Assembly (NCBI RefSeq): GCF_016887565.1
Contig: NZ_CP069396.1
Span: 2,135,001 to 2,199,000, forward strand
Origin: Archangium violaceum
GTDB lineage: Bacteria; Myxococcota; Myxococcia; Myxococcales; Myxococcaceae
Reading direction: 5' to 3'
Length of the DNA: 64,000 nucleotides
Shown here: piece by piece, positions 8,412 to 41,637 of the stretch
Numbering within the stretch: the stretch's first letter is position 1
How the letters are laid out: each line of letters opens with the position of its first letter
Notes under the pieces: model-generated
Databases searched by the model: none
Seen by the model: only the letters and a program-made list of their open reading frames with translations
Told to the model about the DNA's origin: nothing
Translations under genes and position numbers: made by a program

Positions 8412-8462
8412 CCTTGGTTCGGGACCAAGGGGTCGCAGGTTCAAATCCTGTCTCCCCGACCA
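8412..8462 (+). other. tRNA-Pro(CGG) 3'-half fragment, att-like site A
   Basis: The DNA reads as a complete anticodon arm (CTTGG, loop TTCGGGA, CCAAG; anticodon CGG), variable loop, T arm with TTCAAAT, 3' acceptor strand CTCCCCG, A and CCA. There is no acceptor 5' strand or D arm upstream, so it is not a functional gene. Fragments of this kind are left when integrative elements recombine into the 3' part of a tRNA gene. Confidence 0.85.
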
Positions 8463-9939: not shown

Positions 9940-12432
9940 TCAGGCCGTGTTGGCCGGACGGTCCTTCGCGTTGACCTTGAGGGGAGCGGTGGTCGGAACG
10001 AAGCCTACAGCCCACGCATAGCTGGAGAGGCACGACTCGACGGTGTACTTGCTGCCATTGCCTACCAGCAGGCCGTCCGCGACCACCAGGACGTCTTTGC
10101 CCTCGCGCAACAGCACCCCGACATGGCCCGCATGTCCTGTCCCTCCCAGGGCGTACTTGCCATCGATCTTCTCCACGCTTCGCGAGAGCGCCGGGCCGAA
10201 GACGACGACCGTTCCCTCGGGAAGTGCGCGAAGCGCCTTCACGCTCTCCTCTGGAGGCGTCCCCATGCTGCCGTGGCCATGCAAGGGCGGCGTGCACTCG
10301 ACGAACTTCAACATCTCCAGGGTGTGCTTCATGAACTTGGCGCTGTCCATGGCGGACGCGCACTTCACATTGGCCTCCGACTTGACGACATGGGTCTTGT
10401 TGTCCAGATGGCTGTGCTTCGACACGTAGTAGCCCTTGGTCGAGGAGGGGCTCCATCGACCGGTGCCGTAGTCATAGACCCTGCTGATGATGCCACTGGA
10501 GACATAGGGCCGGCCCGACGCGCAGGCATAGCCCACCGCTCCCAACATCTCGCAGACGCCCTTGGCACAAAGGCCCTTGTTGTACAGGCTCATCCGCAGC
10601 CTGGCCTGCTGGCCCAGCTTCTTGAGCGTTTCCTGATGGGCCACGGCGGGGGGCGTCACCTTGGTAGGGGACGTGTTGGAAGCGGTCTGCTTACCCTTGG
10701 AGCCTTGATCGGACTTCGCCACGGTCATCGAGGCCTTGGCTGCGTCAAGGGCCTGGTTGGGCTTGCCCCCGGTGCTGGGGAGCTTGATCCCCAGCTCGGC
10801 CAGTCGCGGATCGCTCCGTGAGTAGACGACGCCGGCCTTCCAGCCCTCCACTTTCTGGATGGCGGTCGCGAACTTCCGCAGCTCCGCGTCGTTCAGGCTC
10901 GAGAGTGTTCTGTCCACGTCGAGCCCGGTCAGTTTCGAGAGCGTGCGGGCATAGGCAACCGGATCATTGCTGTCCGTGGAGGGCGCGTAACGCGCCATTG
11001 CCTTCATCACGGAGAGCGGCTGGTAGGCTTGCGTCTTGAGAAGCGCGAGGAGGGCGGCGAAGCCGGTGGCGTGGTCCGGGAAGATGGCGAAGCGGCGGTT
11101 GTTCTTGCCTTTGAAGGCGCCGTGCGTATCGGCGAAGGCGCCGTTGCGGATGTTGCCCGGATTGTTGTTGCGCCAGGCAATGGTGCCCTGGCCACGCACC
11201 TCGTTCGGATAGATGACGTAGCCATTGATGACGGTGCCCGCGGACTCATCACCCGTCGAGGGCGAAGAGGCCTTGTTGGCACTCGCCTTCGTGTCCGTCT
11301 TGGAGGAGGTGGAGGACTGAGTCTTGGAAGGGGACTTCTGGAGGGTCGTGGTGCCCTGGCTGAGCCCCGGGACGAGCCCGGCCTCCTTCCAGCCTCGGCC
11401 CGTGGCCTTGAGGATGCAGACGCCTTTCTTCGAGTTGGCGGCCTCAATGGTCGTCCCATCGCCCAGGCTGATGGCGACGTGGGTGTCCGTGAAGAGCAAC
11501 GCCCCGCGTGTCTTGATGGCCTCCTCCACCGGGAGGGTGGTCTTGTGCTTGCGGCAATACTCCCGCTGTGCCTGCGAGCCGTCTGGCATGAAGCCCCCAG
11601 CCCGGCTGACGGCCCACTCCACGAGCTCGGAGCAGTCAAAGGCCTTGGCCTGGGTGTCGGAAGCCTTCACCTCCACGCCATACACATAGTCCTTGCCCTT
11701 TTGAGCCAGCGCGGCCTGCACCATGGCCTCGACGCTGGGGAGGGCCGAGGAGGAGCCGGAGGTGCTGGGGCCGGCAAGCCCCCGCAGGAACTGGATGTGC
11801 TTGTCCTCGTCCGGGAAAGAGACACCGGTGGCGAGCAGATCGATGAGCAGCTCCCGAAGAGCGCTCTCCGTCTTCAACATCTCCAGGGCCAGTCCCCCAC
11901 GAGACTGGACGAGCTTGACATACTCAAGCGCCACGTCATCGGAATCTGCGGTCCACTCCTCGTCGAGCAGCTTGAACGCGGTGGTGACGACAGTGATGTC
12001 CTTGCCCCGGTTGTAGAGGGCATGGGCGAGCCCCTCCTCGTCCGTGGACCAGATCGATACGAACTTCTCGACCAACTCCTGCGCGGTGTTCTTGGCCGAG
12101 TTGGCCGCCAGCGTCTTGCCATGGGCCGTGCCATCGGCGGGGTGCCGTGGAGTGGCGGAGAGGCTGATGCCGAGCGCCTCCGCGGTCTTGGGGCCAACCA
12201 CCCCATCGGCGACCAGTCCCTTCGCTCGCTGGAAGGCTTTCACCGCATCGAGGGTCTTCTGCCCGAAGTGGCTGTCCGCCGCACCGACGTTGTAGTGGAG
12301 CGCCGCGAGCCTCGATTGCAGGCTGCTCACCTGCTCGCCCTTGCTGCCGAACCGGAGGAAGGTCTGTGGGTCCACCACCCCGCGCGTCGGGCGGGTCGTG
12401 GGGGACGAATTCGCGGTTTGGTTCAGCGGCAT
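9940..12432 (-). CDS. multidomain peptidoglycan hydrolase (PG-binding, NlpC/P60, NPGNIR domain, second papain-like domain), 830 aa
   Basis: Residues 28-90 match a PG_binding_1 domain (LRFGSKGEQVSSLQSRLAAL ... DGVVGPKTAEALG). Residues 235-345 look like an NlpC/P60 peptidase with Cys267 in FDCSELVEWA and His318 in THVAISLGDG. Residues 400-545 contain the WRNNNPGNIR motif found in phage structural and secreted toxin-like proteins. Residues 610-830 form another Cys/His domain (CAKGVCEMLGAVGYAC and GHAGHVGVLL), probably a second amidase. No signal peptide is seen, so export through a contractile or type VI-like apparatus is possible. GAGG lies 6 bases before the ATG. The upstream neighbour on the same strand is a lipoprotein that could be its immunity partner; that pairing is inference. 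Confidence 0.85.
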   Translation of the reverse strand: MPLNQTANSSPTTRPTRGVVDPQTFLRFGSKGEQVSSLQSRLAALHYNVGAADSHFGQKTLDAVKAFQRAKGLVADGVVGPKTAEALGISLSATPRHPADGTAHGKTLAANSAKNTAQELVEKFVSIWSTDEEGLAHALYNRGKDITVVTTAFKLLDEEWTADSDDVALEYVKLVQSRGGLALEMLKTESALRELLIDLLATGVSFPDEDKHIQFLRGLAGPSTSGSSSALPSVEAMVQAALAQKGKDYVYGVEVKASDTQAKAFDCSELVEWAVSRAGGFMPDGSQAQREYCRKHKTTLPVEEAIKTRGALLFTDTHVAISLGDGTTIEAANSKKGVCILKATGRGWKEAGLVPGLSQGTTTLQKSPSKTQSSTSSKTDTKASANKASSPSTGDESAGTVINGYVIYPNEVRGQGTIAWRNNNPGNIRNGAFADTHGAFKGKNNRRFAIFPDHATGFAALLALLKTQAYQPLSVMKAMARYAPSTDSNDPVAYARTLSKLTGLDVDRTLSSLNDAELRKFATAIQKVEGWKAGVVYSRSDPRLAELGIKLPSTGGKPNQALDAAKASMTVAKSDQGSKGKQTASNTSPTKVTPPAVAHQETLKKLGQQARLRMSLYNKGLCAKGVCEMLGAVGYACASGRPYVSSGIISRVYDYGTGRWSPSSTKGYYVSKHSHLDNKTHVVKSEANVKCASAMDSAKFMKHTLEMLKFVECTPPLHGHGSMGTPPEESVKALRALPEGTVVVFGPALSRSVEKIDGKYALGGTGHAGHVGVLLREGKDVLVVADGLLVGNGSKYTVESCLSSYAWAVGFVPTTAPLKVNAKDRPANTA

Positions 12433-14385: not shown

Positions 14386-14435
<50 letters not shown>

Positions 14436-15896: not shown

Positions 15897-16060
15897 CTAC
15901 TCGGCCGGGGCCGGCTCGGACGCCGCGAAGTCGAGCCGATCGAGGCCCTTGCGCATGTCCTCCACGTCGAGGTGGCCGTACACCTCCGTGGTGATGGCCG
16001 GGTCGGAGTGGCGGAGGATGCACTGCACGGTGGCCAGCAGGACGCCCGCCTTGAGCAGCT
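15897..16060 (-). pseudogene. duplicated integrase C-terminal fragment
   Basis: The minus strand encodes LLKAGVLLATVQCILRHSDP then AITTEVYGHLDVEDMRKGLD and a stop, nearly identical in DNA and protein to the last 55 residues of the intact integrase at 17673. The catalytic His-x-x-Arg region is absent. It marks a second, mostly deleted copy of the same integrase family. Confidence 0.9.
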
Positions 16061-17672: not shown

Positions 17673-18857
17673 CTACTCGGCCGGGGTAGTCGGCTCGGGC
17701 GCCGTGAAGTCGAGCTGGTCGAGGCCCTTGCGCATGTCCTCCACGTCGAGGTGGCCGTACACCTCCGTGGTGATGGCCGGGTCGGAGTGGCGGAGGATGT
17801 GCTGCACGGTGGCAAGCGGGACGCCTGCCTTGAGCAGCAGGGTAGCCGTGGTGTGCCGCAGGTCGTGGAATCGCAGCGGGCGAGGGAGCGCCCGTGGCCA
17901 CAGCTTCATGCCGCAGTGGGGGCAGGGCTCGGGCACGCCGTGACTCCTCCTTGCCTTGTAGCCGCAGCCCTTGCGCCGACAGACGTGGTTGTAGCCCTCC
18001 ACCAGCCCCGCGCGCCCCAGGGCCCGGCGTAGCACCTTGTGCAGGGCCACGTCCGGCCGGTGCTGCGTGCCATCTTGCCGAGGGAATAGAAGCTCCGAGG
18101 GGGACGCGGCCATGGCCTCGCGCAGATATGGCACCAGGCCCACCGCGATGGGCAGCAGGTCCTCCCGGTTGCCCTTCGTAGTGTCGCTCCCGTGGGAGCG
18201 GCCCACCCGGATGGTGCCCGTCTTGAGGTCCACGTCCGACTTGCGCAGCGCCAGCAACTCGCCTTTGCGCATCCCGGTGTAGACGGCCGTGGCGAACAGG
18301 GGCCGCCAGCGGAGCTCCAGGGCCGCGAGCATCAGCGGGACCTCCTCGGCCTTGAGGTACTGCGGGAGCTTCTTCGGCTGTTTGATGCGCGGGACGGTCT
18401 TGGCGGGGTTGAGGCCGGTGAAGAGACCGCGCCGGATCGCCAGCTCGAAGATGCGGTGGACGTGAGCACGCAGGTGGTTGAGCGACTTGGGGGCCAGCTC
18501 ACCGGCCTTCGCGTTGAGCAGCGTTTCCAGCCGCGAGGGCGTAATGTCCTTGAGGGGTAGGGGGCCCAGCTCATCGCGCAGGTGCTTCTCCGCGAAGCCG
18601 ATGATGGTGGTGGAGCGGAGCCGACTGCCCACCTCGGTCTTCCAGACGTCCATGGCCTCCCCGAAGGTGACTTGCTTCCGGTGCTCGGGCATGGGCTCCA
18701 GGCCGCGCCGTTGCCGGTCGGATTGAACCTCCAGGTCATGGAGGAGGGACTTCGCCTCCGTCTTCGTGGTGGCCTGGGTGGCGGTGTCGCGCCACCGGCC
18801 GTGTCCGTCCTTGAATCGGACGTACCACTTGTCGTTCTTGCGGTAGATGGAACCCAT
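17673..18857 (-). CDS. tyrosine recombinase / integrase, 394 aa
   Basis: The N-terminal 60 residues (SIYRKNDKWYVRFKDGHGRW) form an arm-binding domain, residues 75-160 a core SAM-like domain, and residues 185-385 the catalytic domain. Visible catalytic residues are Arg in TGMRKGELLALR, HDLRHTTATLLL, HILRHSDPAI and the Tyr in TEVYGHLD. A zinc-ribbon-like insert (CRRKGCGYKARR ... CPHCGMKLW) interrupts the catalytic domain. AGGAGGT lies 5 bases before the ATG at 18857, ruling out longer starts. With the AlpA-like gene 48 bp upstream and the polymerase gene overlapping that, it forms an operon for element mobility. Confidence 0.96.
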   Translation of the reverse strand: MGSIYRKNDKWYVRFKDGHGRWRDTATQATTKTEAKSLLHDLEVQSDRQRRGLEPMPEHRKQVTFGEAMDVWKTEVGSRLRSTTIIGFAEKHLRDELGPLPLKDITPSRLETLLNAKAGELAPKSLNHLRAHVHRIFELAIRRGLFTGLNPAKTVPRIKQPKKLPQYLKAEEVPLMLAALELRWRPLFATAVYTGMRKGELLALRKSDVDLKTGTIRVGRSHGSDTTKGNREDLLPIAVGLVPYLREAMAASPSELLFPRQDGTQHRPDVALHKVLRRALGRAGLVEGYNHVCRRKGCGYKARRSHGVPEPCPHCGMKLWPRALPRPLRFHDLRHTTATLLLKAGVPLATVQHILRHSDPAITTEVYGHLDVEDMRKGLDQLDFTAPEPTTPAE

Positions 18858-18904
18858 TCGGACCTCCTCGTGATGATGAACCTCAGAGGTCTTATGACTT
18901 GGAC

Positions 18905-19120
18905 CTACCTGATTTTTGTGCCCTGGCCCCTGATGAAGGCGCGGATCGCTGCCGGCTCGAAGCGCAGCAGCCCGCCGATCTTCACGCACGGAAGCTGACC
19001 CGCCTGAGCCCGTTGGTACACCCACGAGCGCGAGGCTTTGAGGAAGCGAGCCACGTCATTCGCGTCCCAGAGGCCCTCCTCCTGCTCCAAGTTGTCCGTG
19101 TCCATGGTGGACCTACGCAT
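18905..19120 (-). CDS. AlpA/excisionase-type helix-turn-helix protein, 71 aa
   Basis: Residues 17-65 match the HTH_17/MerR-like excisionase fold (LWDANDVARFLKASRSWVYQ ... LPCVKIGGLLRFEPAAIRAF). Such proteins bind att DNA and steer integrase direction or regulate its transcription. AGGAGG lies 5 bases before the ATG at 19120. The start overlaps the last 8 bases of the polymerase gene, which suggests coupled translation. Confidence 0.9.
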   Translation of the reverse strand: MRRSTMDTDNLEQEEGLWDANDVARFLKASRSWVYQRAQAGQLPCVKIGGLLRFEPAAIRAFIRGQGTKIR

Positions 19121-20219
19121 CGGCGCCTCCTGCTTCAGATTCCACCGTGCCTACGCCAGCGCGCTTCTTGATGTCGCCGACCGTGGAGCGGGCCAGCTTC
19201 AGTTCCCTGGCCACCTCTCGAACACTCCTGCCGCCACTCAACAAGGTGAGGGCCTTCTCCATCTTGTGGGCCGGCACCCGTGACTTCCGCGGGCGCGCGC
19301 CTCCCTCTCGAATCTGCCGCTGACGCTCACCTGCCTCCAGTCGCGAGAGTGAGCGGTACGGGGCGGTGTCCGTGCTCTGCGTGAATGGTTTGCTGTCGCG
19401 GTCGAGCAACCGTCGCTTGTTGTCCCACGAGAAACCCGTGCGCACCTCCTCCTGTACCAGGGAGTGGATGGGCTTGCCCTCACGTACAGCCGCCTCCACC
19501 GTCAGCCTCCGTTTCCTGATGCGCGTCGGGGCCACGTCGCGCCCCTCGCGCAGGCAGGCCAGCAGCGTCTGGGCGAAGTCCGCCTCCGACTCGCTCGTCC
19601 CCTGACGGGCGACACGCACCACCGCCCAGGTGTCGTCCCGTCCCAGCACCGGCTCACCGGGGCCCACGTCCTCCACCCTCCGCAGCAGCGCGTACAAGCG
19701 AGCACGGGCGATGAAGACGGCATCAGCCCGATGCTCCAGGCGCATGCCGCTGCCAACGCTCTCCAGCGCATCGAGCCCTTCACAGCGCAGGTCCAACTCC
19801 TCGGGGCAGATGATGGCGTCGGTGGAGATGAGAAGGGCCCCACGCGCGGTGATGTCGGCCATGAGGGCGCGAGCCCGGCCCAGCACCAGCGTGGCCCACT
19901 CCGGGGCGAAGGCACTGCCTACATCCGGAGGCCCCTTGAGCGAGGCGCGCAACAACGGCGAGCCGTGGATGGCCGCTCCCAATCCCGGGCCGAAGCCGTG
20001 GAGCTGGGCCTCGCGCTCGACGTCCAGCAGGCCCGAACCGTGGATCCTCTCGGCCAGCTTGCCCAGCAGGGCGTTGGCGAAGAGCTTGGCCGTGGCGTAC
20101 TCCAGGGTGCCCCTCTTGGCGGCGGCCTTCTTCTCGAGGAAGTGCCGCATGTAGCGGCTCACGTCGTGGTCGCGCTCACGAGGGCCGGGCTTGAAGCCGT
20201 AGGCTTCCACCACCTTCAC
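19113..20219 (-). CDS. family-B DNA polymerase, C-terminal part (motifs B and C, thumb, HTH tail), 368 aa
   Basis: This frame is the in-frame continuation of the 20232-21398 gene after one TGA codon. It contains motif B as AKLFANALLGKL (KxxxNxxxGK) and motif C as LISTDAII, where the first Asp of DTD is Ser but the metal-binding second Asp is kept. A thumb-like region precedes a C-terminal helix-turn-helix (SGGRSVREVARELKLARSTV), which is not usual for PolB. If separately translated, a GTG at 20219 would serve as start; there is no clear ribosome site. Either the gene is broken or the stop is read through or re-initiated. Confidence 0.8.
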   Translation of the reverse strand: MKVVEAYGFKPGPRERDHDVSRYMRHFLEKKAAAKRGTLEYATAKLFANALLGKLAERIHGSGLLDVEREAQLHGFGPGLGAAIHGSPLLRASLKGPPDVGSAFAPEWATLVLGRARALMADITARGALLISTDAIICPEELDLRCEGLDALESVGSGMRLEHRADAVFIARARLYALLRRVEDVGPGEPVLGRDDTWAVVRVARQGTSESEADFAQTLLACLREGRDVAPTRIRKRRLTVEAAVREGKPIHSLVQEEVRTGFSWDNKRRLLDRDSKPFTQSTDTAPYRSLSRLEAGERQRQIREGGARPRKSRVPAHKMEKALTLLSGGRSVREVARELKLARSTVGDIKKRAGVGTVESEAGGADA

Positions 20220-20231
20220 CTTCGCTCCCCG

Positions 20232-21398
20232 TCATAGCGCCAGGCGCACCTCGGCCAGCGTGCAGGAGGAGGTTCCTTGAAGAGGAAAGACGAGTCGACG
20301 CACGCCATTGCGATGCACTGGCAGGCAGGGGTAGCGCGTGCCCCTCGGGAAGACGAACGTGAAGGTGCCGAAGCCCTCGTGCTCCTCGACCTGGGCGAGG
20401 GATTCCAGCCGGACCCACCGTGTCCCAGCGTGGGGGAGCGGCTGGAGCATCGCCGCGTAGGGATAGAGGGACACTGCGTCGTACTCGGCGAAGGCGCCGA
20501 CGTGGAAGCCGCGCCGGAACGCCTCCGACTGCGCACCCCAGTAGGCGCGGCAGGCCATGCGGCGCACGTTCGGGTCGCCGTTGAAGACCAGCTCGACACG
20601 CGGCTCATCCCGGTAGCCCGTGCCCTTCTTCACCTTGCGCACCACCTCGCGCTTCACCACCGGGGCGGGACCATTCCGGACGAAGTGCAGGCGGAAGATG
20701 GCGGACGCCACGGCCGGTAAGGTGCGGTTGCCGAGCACGTCGATGTTCCACTCGGCGAGCACCCCCTGGCGGAAGTCCCGCATGGCACGCAGGGCCACCT
20801 CCGCGTCCCGGGTGGCATGGGCCACCAGCCGCGCTAGATCCGTCCGCTTCAGCTCGGTCAGGTGCGGCCCATCTGCCTCCAGGCGGGGACTGCCCACGGT
20901 TCGAGCGATTTCCTCCAAGGGCGTCTTCGGGAAATAGCCCGCGAGATCCACCAGCCGCACGTCCCAGGTGCCCTCCTCGCGCTTCACGCGCTCCAGTCGC
21001 GCGTGGTGGGCCTTTCCCACCTGCTCCACCCGCGCCTCGGCCACGGCGGAAGGAAAGAGGGCGAGGAGACTGCTGGCCTCGTGTGCCACCACATGCACCT
21101 GCCGGATTCCGCGCCGGGCGGGCGGCATGGCATCGGCCCGCCGGAGCAGTTCCCGGATGCAGTCGATGAGCTGCTCGCCCATGAGCTGTCCCTCGGGCAG
21201 CTCGTAGGCTTGGGCGTGGACGTGCTCGTCCGCGAGGGTGACGAGCTGCAACAGCAGCGGGACGCGATGCTCCTCGTCCCACTTCACGCTCACGCCCACC
21301 AGCACGGTGTGCGGATACGCTCGGGGCCGACGACGGAGGGGAGAGAGTGTCCGGGACAGGAGCAGCCCCAGGTGCGTCTCCAAGTCCTTCTCGTTCAT
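20232..21398 (-). CDS. family-B DNA polymerase, N-terminal part (exonuclease-like domain and motif A), 388 aa
   Basis: Residues 30-210 resemble a diverged 3'-5' exonuclease domain; an Exo III-like HATRDAEVALRAM is visible, with Asp198, while Exo I and II residues are unclear. AYWGAQSEAFRRG near 285 matches the YxGGxxEaFxxG element that precedes the palm, and AEYDAVSLYPYAAM at 304-317 is motif A (DxxSLYP). The reading stops at TGA after VRLAL, but the same frame resumes with RGAKVKVVEAYGF, exactly where PolB sequences continue. The ATG at 21398 follows a GGGGGTGG stretch; 33 upstream codons look non-coding. It is likely an element-borne replicative polymerase of viral/plasmid type. Confidence 0.85.
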   Translation of the reverse strand: MNEKDLETHLGLLLSRTLSPLRRRPRAYPHTVLVGVSVKWDEEHRVPLLLQLVTLADEHVHAQAYELPEGQLMGEQLIDCIRELLRRADAMPPARRGIRQVHVVAHEASSLLALFPSAVAEARVEQVGKAHHARLERVKREEGTWDVRLVDLAGYFPKTPLEEIARTVGSPRLEADGPHLTELKRTDLARLVAHATRDAEVALRAMRDFRQGVLAEWNIDVLGNRTLPAVASAIFRLHFVRNGPAPVVKREVVRKVKKGTGYRDEPRVELVFNGDPNVRRMACRAYWGAQSEAFRRGFHVGAFAEYDAVSLYPYAAMLQPLPHAGTRWVRLESLAQVEEHEGFGTFTFVFPRGTRYPCLPVHRNGVRRLVFPLQGTSSCTLAEVRLAL

Positions 21399-21546
21399 GC
21401 GCCACCCCCGAGCAATTCCAGGGACTTGGCGCGGCAGGAGACTGGCGCGTTTCGCCAGATGGCGGACTGGAACCGTCCACCCCCTCGGAGCTTGCAAGCC
21501 CTCGAAATTACGACGTCGAGGGGCTCAACAGAGTGTCCGGAACCGT

Positions 21547-21852: not shown

Positions 21853-22581
21853 TCATGCCTGCAAGTCCCCGAATGGGGATTGCGGTGGCGGAAGGGGCGG
21901 CTCCTCTGGTGACGGGTCGGTTGGCGCCGTGGGTGGGGGGCTCTGGCCTGTGAGCTGTCTCAACGCCGCCAGGAGCTCCTTGGAGTTTTGGCGCGCGTTG
22001 GCCCACTTCCACACCCGCTGGGTGGTTTCCACTTTGTCCGAGGTGGGGTCCTCATAGCCGATGAGGATGGCGAGCGCGGCGATCTCCCTGTGCGCCAACT
22101 CGATGCCGAGTATCTCCGCCGTGAAGTCCGCGAAGGCGGCCATCATCCTCTTCTCCGCACCCGCTCCTTCGAGCAGGACACGTAGAGCTGGCTTCTGTTT
22201 CACTTCTTCGAGCAGGGGTCCGATACGTCGTTGGAGAGCGAGAAGGAAGGTGGCCACTCGTTCCAGTTGGCGCAGAGGCTGGAGGCTCTCGACGAGCACG
22301 GGCGGCAGCAAGCCGCGCGTGACCTGGATGTATCGCCCCACCCAACTGCTCCTGGCGTTCTGGAAGAGCGACTGCTTGCGCTGGCTGAGCACGTCGTTCT
22401 TCTTGCCGAGCCATCCCAGCAGGTTCCGCAGGGGCTCGGACGCATTGGAGATCTTGAGTCCCATCTCCATGCTCGCTGCAAGCGCGTCAACATGCGGGCG
22501 GATGCGTTCCTGCTCTACTTCAAGGTAGGCGAAAACCGAGGCATTCGAGGCGAGATGCGCGATGAAGCGTGGCTGGTTCAT
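21853..22581 (-). CDS. hypothetical helical protein, 242 aa
   Basis: The protein is almost all helical, with no signal peptide. The C-terminal 30 residues are Pro/Glu-rich (SPPPTAPTDPSPEEPPLPPP). I do not recognise a family. The ATG at 22581 is chosen over a TTG 12 codons upstream. It is divergent from the 22661 gene, with about 80 bp between starts that must hold both promoters, and lies upstream of the polymerase gene on the same strand. Confidence 0.7.
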   Translation of the reverse strand: MNQPRFIAHLASNASVFAYLEVEQERIRPHVDALAASMEMGLKISNASEPLRNLLGWLGKKNDVLSQRKQSLFQNARSSWVGRYIQVTRGLLPPVLVESLQPLRQLERVATFLLALQRRIGPLLEEVKQKPALRVLLEGAGAEKRMMAAFADFTAEILGIELAHREIAALAILIGYEDPTSDKVETTQRVWKWANARQNSKELLAALRQLTGQSPPPTAPTDPSPEEPPLPPPQSPFGDLQA

Positions 22582-22660
22582 GGCCGAGAAGCTCGTCACG
22601 CCTGGTCCCCCCGCCAAGAAGCAGTTCCCACAGGTGTAGAGGCTCCTTCACAATTCGAGC

Positions 22661-34031: not shown

Positions 34032-35228
34032 ATGCCTATCGACCTCACGGTCTTCGCTACCCCAGTTCTCCGCGGGCAACGCTTCGACCACAACCCCGAT
34101 CCGAACAATGTAACCATCCCGGTGGACGTCCTCCCGATGCTTGAGGAGTACCGGATGGTCATCCTTGAGACCGCTCGTGCGCTCTACCATCAGCGCACGG
34201 GCGCCCGGGTCCCTGCGGGCTTCGACGACAGCTTCGCTTTGCGGCTGGGGAGGGTTGAACCAGGCAGCACCATTCCGACCCTGCTTCGCACGGTGGCTTT
34301 ATCGGCGGCGCTGATTCAGAACTATCCGGCAGTTATGGGTCCTGACGGGCGGGACATCTTCGAGGAGGCCCGCGAGGTTGTAGGGCAGACGATTTCCGCC
34401 ATATCTCAACGGCAGCAACTCCCGAGGGCCTTCCCGCGCAAGCACCTGAACAAACTGCGTCACATGAGTGAGCACCTTGAGGAGGGTGAGTCGCTCGAAC
34501 TGCGCACGCCGGGGGCACCAGCAGGGCCCAGGACCACCCGTGCACTCAAGGACGTAATTCGGGACATTGAGATCCAGCAAACATCTCGCGTTGTCTCGTT
34601 CGTTGGGCAAGTGACGGGCATGGACACTGTGTCCCGCTCGTTCACTGTTCGGACGCGGGACGGTGTGAACATTGATGCGACCTATGGCGAGGGGGTGGGG
34701 AGCGAGCAGGAGGTTGTCAACCTGCTGCGTGGCCGGCACTACATGCGTGCCGAGGTTGAGGTCGATGCGACGTTCGATGTTGATGGTAAGCTGAAGGACG
34801 TGTCACGCCTTCTCAGTTTCATGGCCGTGACCGTGGTAGCCGAGGCAACTGTGAAGCAGCTCGAGGACAGATTTGAGGTACTCGGGACTGTCGAGTCCGG
34901 TTGGCTCGATGGCAAGGGCGCTGCCGTGTCGGCGGAGCGGTTGCCATGGACGAAGGACCTGTTCCTCGAATTGATGGTGGAGGACGGCATCCCGAAGCCG
35001 CGTCTCTATCCGACACCAACTGGTGACATTGAGGCCGAGTGGTCCCATGGAGGCTGGGAGGTCGTCGCTACCATTGTGCTGATGGCGCGTACTGCCAGCG
35101 TCACTGTCGTGCACGCCGAACTTGACGACGAGGACGAGGGCGACTTCAACCTCAACACTGACGAAGGTCGGACTGACTTCGCCGCCTTCCTCAGGAAGTA
35201 CTTGAACCCCACCGAGGAGGAGCGCTGA
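34032..35228 (+). CDS. hypothetical protein of a two-gene cassette, first gene, 398 aa
   Basis: No recognised domain. The N-terminal half is mixed helical. Residues 185-300 look beta-rich (TSRVVSFVGQVTGMDTVSRS; FTVRTRDGVNIDATYGEGVG), like an OB- or barrel-type fold, and the C-terminal 110 residues end in an acidic tail. Third-position G/C is lower than in flanking genes, suggesting transfer. Its TGA overlaps the next start (TGATG), so the two proteins are probably made together and may interact. Function unknown. Confidence 0.78.
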   Translation: MPIDLTVFATPVLRGQRFDHNPDPNNVTIPVDVLPMLEEYRMVILETARALYHQRTGARVPAGFDDSFALRLGRVEPGSTIPTLLRTVALSAALIQNYPAVMGPDGRDIFEEAREVVGQTISAISQRQQLPRAFPRKHLNKLRHMSEHLEEGESLELRTPGAPAGPRTTRALKDVIRDIEIQQTSRVVSFVGQVTGMDTVSRSFTVRTRDGVNIDATYGEGVGSEQEVVNLLRGRHYMRAEVEVDATFDVDGKLKDVSRLLSFMAVTVVAEATVKQLEDRFEVLGTVESGWLDGKGAAVSAERLPWTKDLFLELMVEDGIPKPRLYPTPTGDIEAEWSHGGWEVVATIVLMARTASVTVVHAELDDEDEGDFNLNTDEGRTDFAAFLRKYLNPTEEER

Positions 35229-41597: not shown

Positions 41598-41637
41598 CCT
41601 TGGTTCGGGACCAAGGGGTCGCAGGTTCAAATCCTGT
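41598..41637 (+). other. tRNA-Pro(CGG) 3'-half fragment, att-like site C
   Basis: The anticodon arm through the T stem (CCTTGGTTCGGGACCAAGG ... TTCAAATCCTGT) is identical to site A. The acceptor 3' strand and CCA are replaced by GAAGACGCACC, so identity ends at the T stem. It marks the right junction with ordinary chromosome. Confidence 0.82.

Follow-up and report, generated by a model that had tools for sequence, protein, structure and literature searches.

A probable nonsense mutation in the family-B DNA polymerase gene of a tRNA-associated integrative element in Archangium violaceum

Introduction

A gene for a family-B DNA polymerase (PolB) in the genome of Archangium violaceum is interrupted by an in-frame TGA, and the question is whether the gene has been broken by mutation, only appears broken through an error in the sequence, or is still expressed across or behind the stop. 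The gene lies in a stretch of 64,000 nucleotides (G000:C1:2135001-2199000), the whole of which we refer to as the window, taken from a genome that forms one contig of 13.2 Mb and is scored 100% complete. The initial annotation of this DNA had offered four options for the stop: a recent nonsense mutation, a sequencing error, read-through, and re-initiation that yields two subunits. Here we compare the gene and the element around it with relatives from the Myxococcota and with polymerases of known systems.

Results

The interrupted reading frame

The PolB frame runs on the minus strand from an ATG at 21398 to a stop ending at 19113 and comprises 761 codons. Codon 389 is the in-frame TGA at 20234-20232, seen as TCA on the plus strand (translation of 19113-21500). 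It is the only internal stop, the sequence reading VRLAL*RGAKVKVVEAYGF, and the frame is unshifted across it. Position-specific G+C is 0.75/0.45/0.86 on the 5' side of the TGA and 0.71/0.51/0.85 on the 3' side, which is coding-like on both. When the stop is read through, the Pfam family DNA_pol_B_2 (PF03175) spans it continuously with a value of 1.9e-13 for the whole protein; the separate parts give 5.3e-5 (part 1) and 0.056 (part 2), and the PolB of an intact relative gives 9.5e-14. The claim of the initial annotation that the frame is unchanged, with coding sequence on both sides, is borne out by these results.

By translation, Pfam and alignment, part 1 extends from the ATG to the TGA (20232-21398, minus strand) and holds a degenerate exonuclease domain and motif A, and part 2 (19113-20231, minus strand) runs on to the natural stop and holds motifs B and C as well as a C-terminal helix-turn-helix. 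In the alignment, motif A is EYDAVSLYPYA (residues 305-315; 20454-20486), motif B is TAKLFANALLGKLAE (residues 436-450; 20049-20093) and motif C is LISTDAIIC (residues 523-531; 19806-19832), with a single Asp instead of D-T-D. The helix-turn-helix (Pfam HTH_7) lies at 19179-19289; all four are on the minus strand, and the coordinates of motifs A and B and of the helix-turn-helix are derived from codon number. Translation and motif alignment thus place the single TGA between motif A (Asp307) and motif B (Lys438), as had been claimed.

Codon 389 in related genomes

A search for PolB covered 96 genomes of the family, with matches in 7, and 195 genomes of the phylum, of which 10 carry PolB copies. 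Fifteen genomes were matched altogether, but G049, G089, G131, G146 and G152 match the C-terminal helix-turn-helix only and were not counted as PolB copies. The PolB genes of G033 (99% protein identity) and G031 (98%), which belong to another genus, are open through all 761 codons and have Arg at codon 389, and as this one uninterrupted frame recurs in them, the two parts are not two open frames adjoining by chance. Comparison with orthologues, a check proposed in the initial annotation, finds Arg at this codon also in G078 (Myxococcus xanthus AM003) and G063. Since these four copies encode Arg, the TGA, present in one of eight aligned rows (that of the window), is on the aligned sequences derived in the window's lineage and private to its genome. 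The proposed single C-to-T change holds as far as a one-transition origin from an Arg codon is concerned, since the G033 and G031 orthologues carry Arg one transition away. With Arg in these two orthologues and in two outgroup copies, a recent nonsense mutation is the best supported of the four options. The PolBs of G143, G138 and G142, with 39-43% identity to the window protein, are open. Across the relatives the residue at codon 389 varies, being Arg or, in more distant ones, Ala, and never Cys.

Constraint and horizontal transfer

With the stop set aside, the window and G033 PolB genes differ by 19 synonymous and 7 amino-acid changes, and dN/dS is 0.13 overall, 0.06 before the TGA and 0.16 behind it, the changes being too few to show relaxation. 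Before the stop arose, to judge by these values, purifying selection acted on the frame. Behind the TGA there is no second stop and no indel relative to G033 or G031, and this undamaged region fits a young mutation, but it also fits read-through or restart. The module of PolB and integrase is 97.8% identical to that of G033 over 4951 bases, whereas identity is about 85% in the chromosome flanking that tRNA gene, and because of this difference the module must have moved recently between genera. The stop is younger than the common source of the window and G033 modules. The comparison shows a horizontal origin of the PolB module, at the level of nucleotide identity.

Lesions among the PolB copies

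Eleven PolB copies were found in 10 of the 195 Myxococcota genomes, five of them open (G031, G033, G138, G142 and G143) and six broken. Besides the copy with TGA at codon 389 in the window, the broken ones are those of M. xanthus AM003, with TAG at codon 287, and G041, with TAA at codon 497; that of G063, where an insertion sequence with a DDE_Tnp_1 transposase interrupts motif B (L017 9291-10736) and is flanked by the 10-base target duplication GGCGTACTCC; a second copy in the window's own genome, of which only the C-terminal part is present; and short remnants in G032. The stops in M. xanthus AM003 and G041 carry the usual doubt, because both assemblies are drafts. No two of the six broken copies share the place of their lesion. 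Recoding or a split, if conserved, would fix one site, and the six different sites therefore argue against programmed read-through, selenocysteine and a conserved two-subunit enzyme. As a separate observation, the PolB frame of G041 continues into an excisionase-like HTH_17/MerR domain, in the manner of a polB-xis fusion (L007 2947-3918).

The integrative element

In the element PolB is followed by a gene for a small excisionase-like protein of 66 aa (18905-19105, minus strand; Pfam HTH_17) and then by a tyrosine recombinase/integrase (17673-19025, minus strand; Pfam and translation), whose frame is open and whose true start is likely the ATG at 18857. Upstream of PolB, a Pfam scan and comparison with relatives place a 254-aa protein (21853-22617, minus strand) that is 98% identical in G033 and G031. 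A complete tRNA-Pro(CGG) on one side and a second copy of its 3' 49 bases on the other, 11-14 kb apart, flank the module in G033, G031 and G063. The complete tRNA-Pro of the window's genome is at G000:C1:2129969, upstream of the window, and att copies are at 2143414, 2149386 and 2176600. In window coordinates, the repeat comparison gives these copies of the 3' part of tRNA-Pro(CGG) at 8414-8462, at 14386-14434 (plus strand, integrase side) and at 41600-41637 (plus strand, far side, 38 bases of the core), and as repeats they mark tandem integrations. The complete tRNA-Pro heads this array, which falls into three segments. PolB belongs to the third of these (window 14386-41637), a stretch of about 27 kb that also encodes, among others, kinases, a DUF932 protein and an IS66 transposase.

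The integrase is open in the window, G033, G031 and M. xanthus AM003, and apparently frameshifted in G063. Since PolB is broken and the integrase open both in the window and in M. xanthus AM003, this combination occurs in at least two elements. We also observed a 92% copy of the 3' end of the integrase gene (window 15897-16059, matching 17673-17838). It lies 1.8 kb away, separated from the gene by about 1.6 kb of other DNA; a second integration or a recombination event seems to have left it as a scar. The integrase frame of M. xanthus AM003 (L016 11299-12762) crosses a tRNA-Pro on the opposite strand (11317-11393), with the att site inside the integrase frame. PADLOC, run on 10 window proteins, returned kinase matches and one candidate family only; the latter is the candidate defence family PDC-M32A, matched within the element at 34032-35228 (4.6e-63).

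The kind of polymerase

When plasmids were searched with tblastn, 39 records with distant PolBs came up, in Staphylococcus, Fusobacterium, Pseudosulfitobacter and Bacillus. The phage collection yielded no match to the window PolB or to the S. epidermidis plasmid PolB, and a scan of viral contigs gave 24 pattern matches but no relative. Sequence searches of the PDB with PolB gave no polymerase match, and NCBIfam gave nothing above cut-off for the five PolBs tried. A structure predicted from a two-row alignment had a mean pLDDT of 34 and was not used.

We built a maximum-likelihood tree of 19 rows, with eight myxobacterial PolBs, five plasmid PolBs and six others (phi29, Av-1, autolykivirus, GC1, a Methanosarcina virus and a Bacillus plasmid); no E. 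coli piPolB was included, and the Pseudosulfitobacter PolB was left out, its frame as read having only 463 residues. A branch of 100/99 separates the eight myxobacterial and five plasmid rows from the six others, in a tree whose midpoint root is arbitrary and which has two long end branches, and the myxobacterial and the plasmid PolBs each form a single group. The myxobacterial PolBs are, in this tree and under its arbitrary midpoint root, sister to the single-Asp plasmid PolBs of putative piPolB kind. We take these plasmid PolBs, including that of pSE-12228-03, to be piPolB.

Motif C reads S-T-D in all eight aligned myxobacterial rows (STDA) and T-D-G in all five plasmid rows. A single Asp in this motif is common to the myxobacterial proteins and the PolBs of Staphylococcus, Fusobacterium and Helicobacter plasmids. 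A Lys-Thr-Arg(-Gly) motif is a feature of piPolB; where the plasmid PolBs have mostly K-T-R (Helicobacter: R-T-R), the eight myxobacterial rows have R-x-R. The Asp-x-Glu of ExoI is missing in the window's clade (VSVKW) and also in G143 and G138, and is kept in G142 (GFDTEW) and G041 (GFDLEW).

Discussion

Comparison with known systems

Like pipolins, the myxobacterial element is integrative and carries a PolB gene together with a tyrosine recombinase and an excisionase-like gene, and its direct repeats overlap a tRNA gene. Its polymerase resembles piPolB in having only the second Asp in motif C; in the tree, under the arbitrary midpoint root, it groups with the putative piPolBs of pSE-12228-03 and of Fusobacterium and Helicobacter plasmids. 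It differs from piPolB in its length of 761 aa, its C-terminal helix-turn-helix, the loss of the ExoI Asp-x-Glu in the window's clade, R-x-R in eight of eight rows instead of K-T-R(-G), and an identity of only about 20% to the plasmid proteins. One report has the first Asp of motif C missing from primer-independent PolBs (PMC7544198). E. coli pipolins, according to another (PMC7385651), integrate at tRNA-Leu and carry att repeats and tyrosine recombinases, whereas the myxobacterial element targets tRNA-Pro; ExplorePipolin likewise relies on att repeats and tRNA genes (PMC9710591). Broken polymerase genes are a further likeness, as truncated piPolB genes occur in E. coli pipolins (PMC7385651).

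The protein-primed PolBs of phi29, tectiviruses and autolykiviruses belong to the same Pfam fold family, PF03175, and have their motifs in broadly the same order, but they lie in the separate tree group of six rows (100/99), and the myxobacterial motif C block, with a single Asp in place of D-T-D, does not align with theirs. Pfam scans of the neighbouring genes recognised no terminal-protein gene, which is weak evidence.

Origin of the stop codon

As the origin of the stop, a nonsense mutation is most likely and a base error is less likely. In the latter case, the true codon would be a sense codon and the gene intact. Such a sequencing or assembly error would suit a gene in which one transition is the sole lesion and purifying selection is seen on both sides of the TGA. 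We nevertheless regard it as unlikely, given a genome in one contig that is scored complete and five other PolB copies that are also broken, which makes breakage of PolB common. Translation could also terminate and re-initiate, with the two parts assembling into an active enzyme. The GTG that the initial annotation had placed 15 bases on is present, as the first in-frame GTG, at 20219-20217 (minus strand), 12 bases past the TGA, with GGGGAG ending 5 nt upstream of it; the cut lies between conserved motifs at a variable residue (Arg, Ala), and the C part is under constraint. Natural split B-family polymerases exist, in Methanothermobacter and some T4-like phages, where the polymerase is likewise encoded by two frames and the gap also falls between conserved motifs. 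Their split is fixed, however, whereas here it is private to one genome (one of eight aligned rows): none of the seven other aligned copies stops at codon 389, the GTG codon is a Leu codon in G078 and G063, and no adaptation is seen around the cut. Two-subunit re-initiation, although physically feasible, is therefore disfavoured, and we consider it improbable. A ribosome-binding site newly made behind the stop was also considered and is rejected, because by comparison with G078 the GGA at codon 391 is ancestral, so that the purine run predates the stop.

Functional read-through of UGA-C, which would supply some full-length polymerase, seems to us very improbable. A TGA followed by C is a leaky stop context, and C is the base found here; since codon 389 encodes different residues in different relatives, the protein may accept whichever amino acid is inserted. 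Against this, the position of the stop is kept in no relative, and the predicted RNA fold behind the UGA is unexceptional (z -1.7; 8 of 200 shuffles are equally stable). Programmed recoding is rejected on the same absence of a stop at codon 389 from the seven other aligned copies, which leaves programmed read-through physically feasible but disfavoured. That the UGA is read as selenocysteine is barely conceivable, and we reject it despite two tRNA-Sec genes above the Rfam cut-off in the genome (G000:C1:5204985 and 5182915), because the relatives carry Arg, or further away Ala, and never Cys at this codon. General RNA folding compared with shuffles gives no exceptional stem-loop directly behind the UGA, and we know of no role for selenocysteine in a B-family polymerase of this type.

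The TGA is, in our judgement, probably a nonsense mutation of recent date that is confined to this genome and lies in the PolB gene of a tyrosine-recombinase integrative element in a tRNA-Pro array, and ordinary gene decay is the most likely account of it. Translation would end after codon 388 and leave an exonuclease-like fragment with motif A and without motifs B and C, so active polymerase would be absent apart from trace leakage. Restart at the GTG behind GGGGAG may yield the C part, with no sign of selection for such a restart. The element may persist without its polymerase, and PolB would be dispensable there, since both the integrase gene and the excisionase-like gene are open and integrated DNA is replicated by the host.

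Implications

A broader reading, which we put forward only tentatively, is that the Myxococcota possess their own pipolin-like branch, with a single-Asp PolB, a helix-turn-helix tail and an exonuclease that is degenerate in some of its members. In hosts of the window's family the polymerase would be dispensable or costly after integration, leading to repeated independent lesions, and some elements with an open integrase would still be moving. Our literature search found no description that links pipolins with Myxococcota. The gene found here points to a Myxococcota branch of self-synthesising mobile elements, and this polymerase branch merits follow-up more than the stop codon does. If confirmed, it would widen the range of piPolB-like polymerases and would provide natural enzymes without the Lys of K-T-R and without part of the exonuclease, and the existence of nearly the same element in both intact and broken form would offer a way to probe the role of the polymerase for the element.
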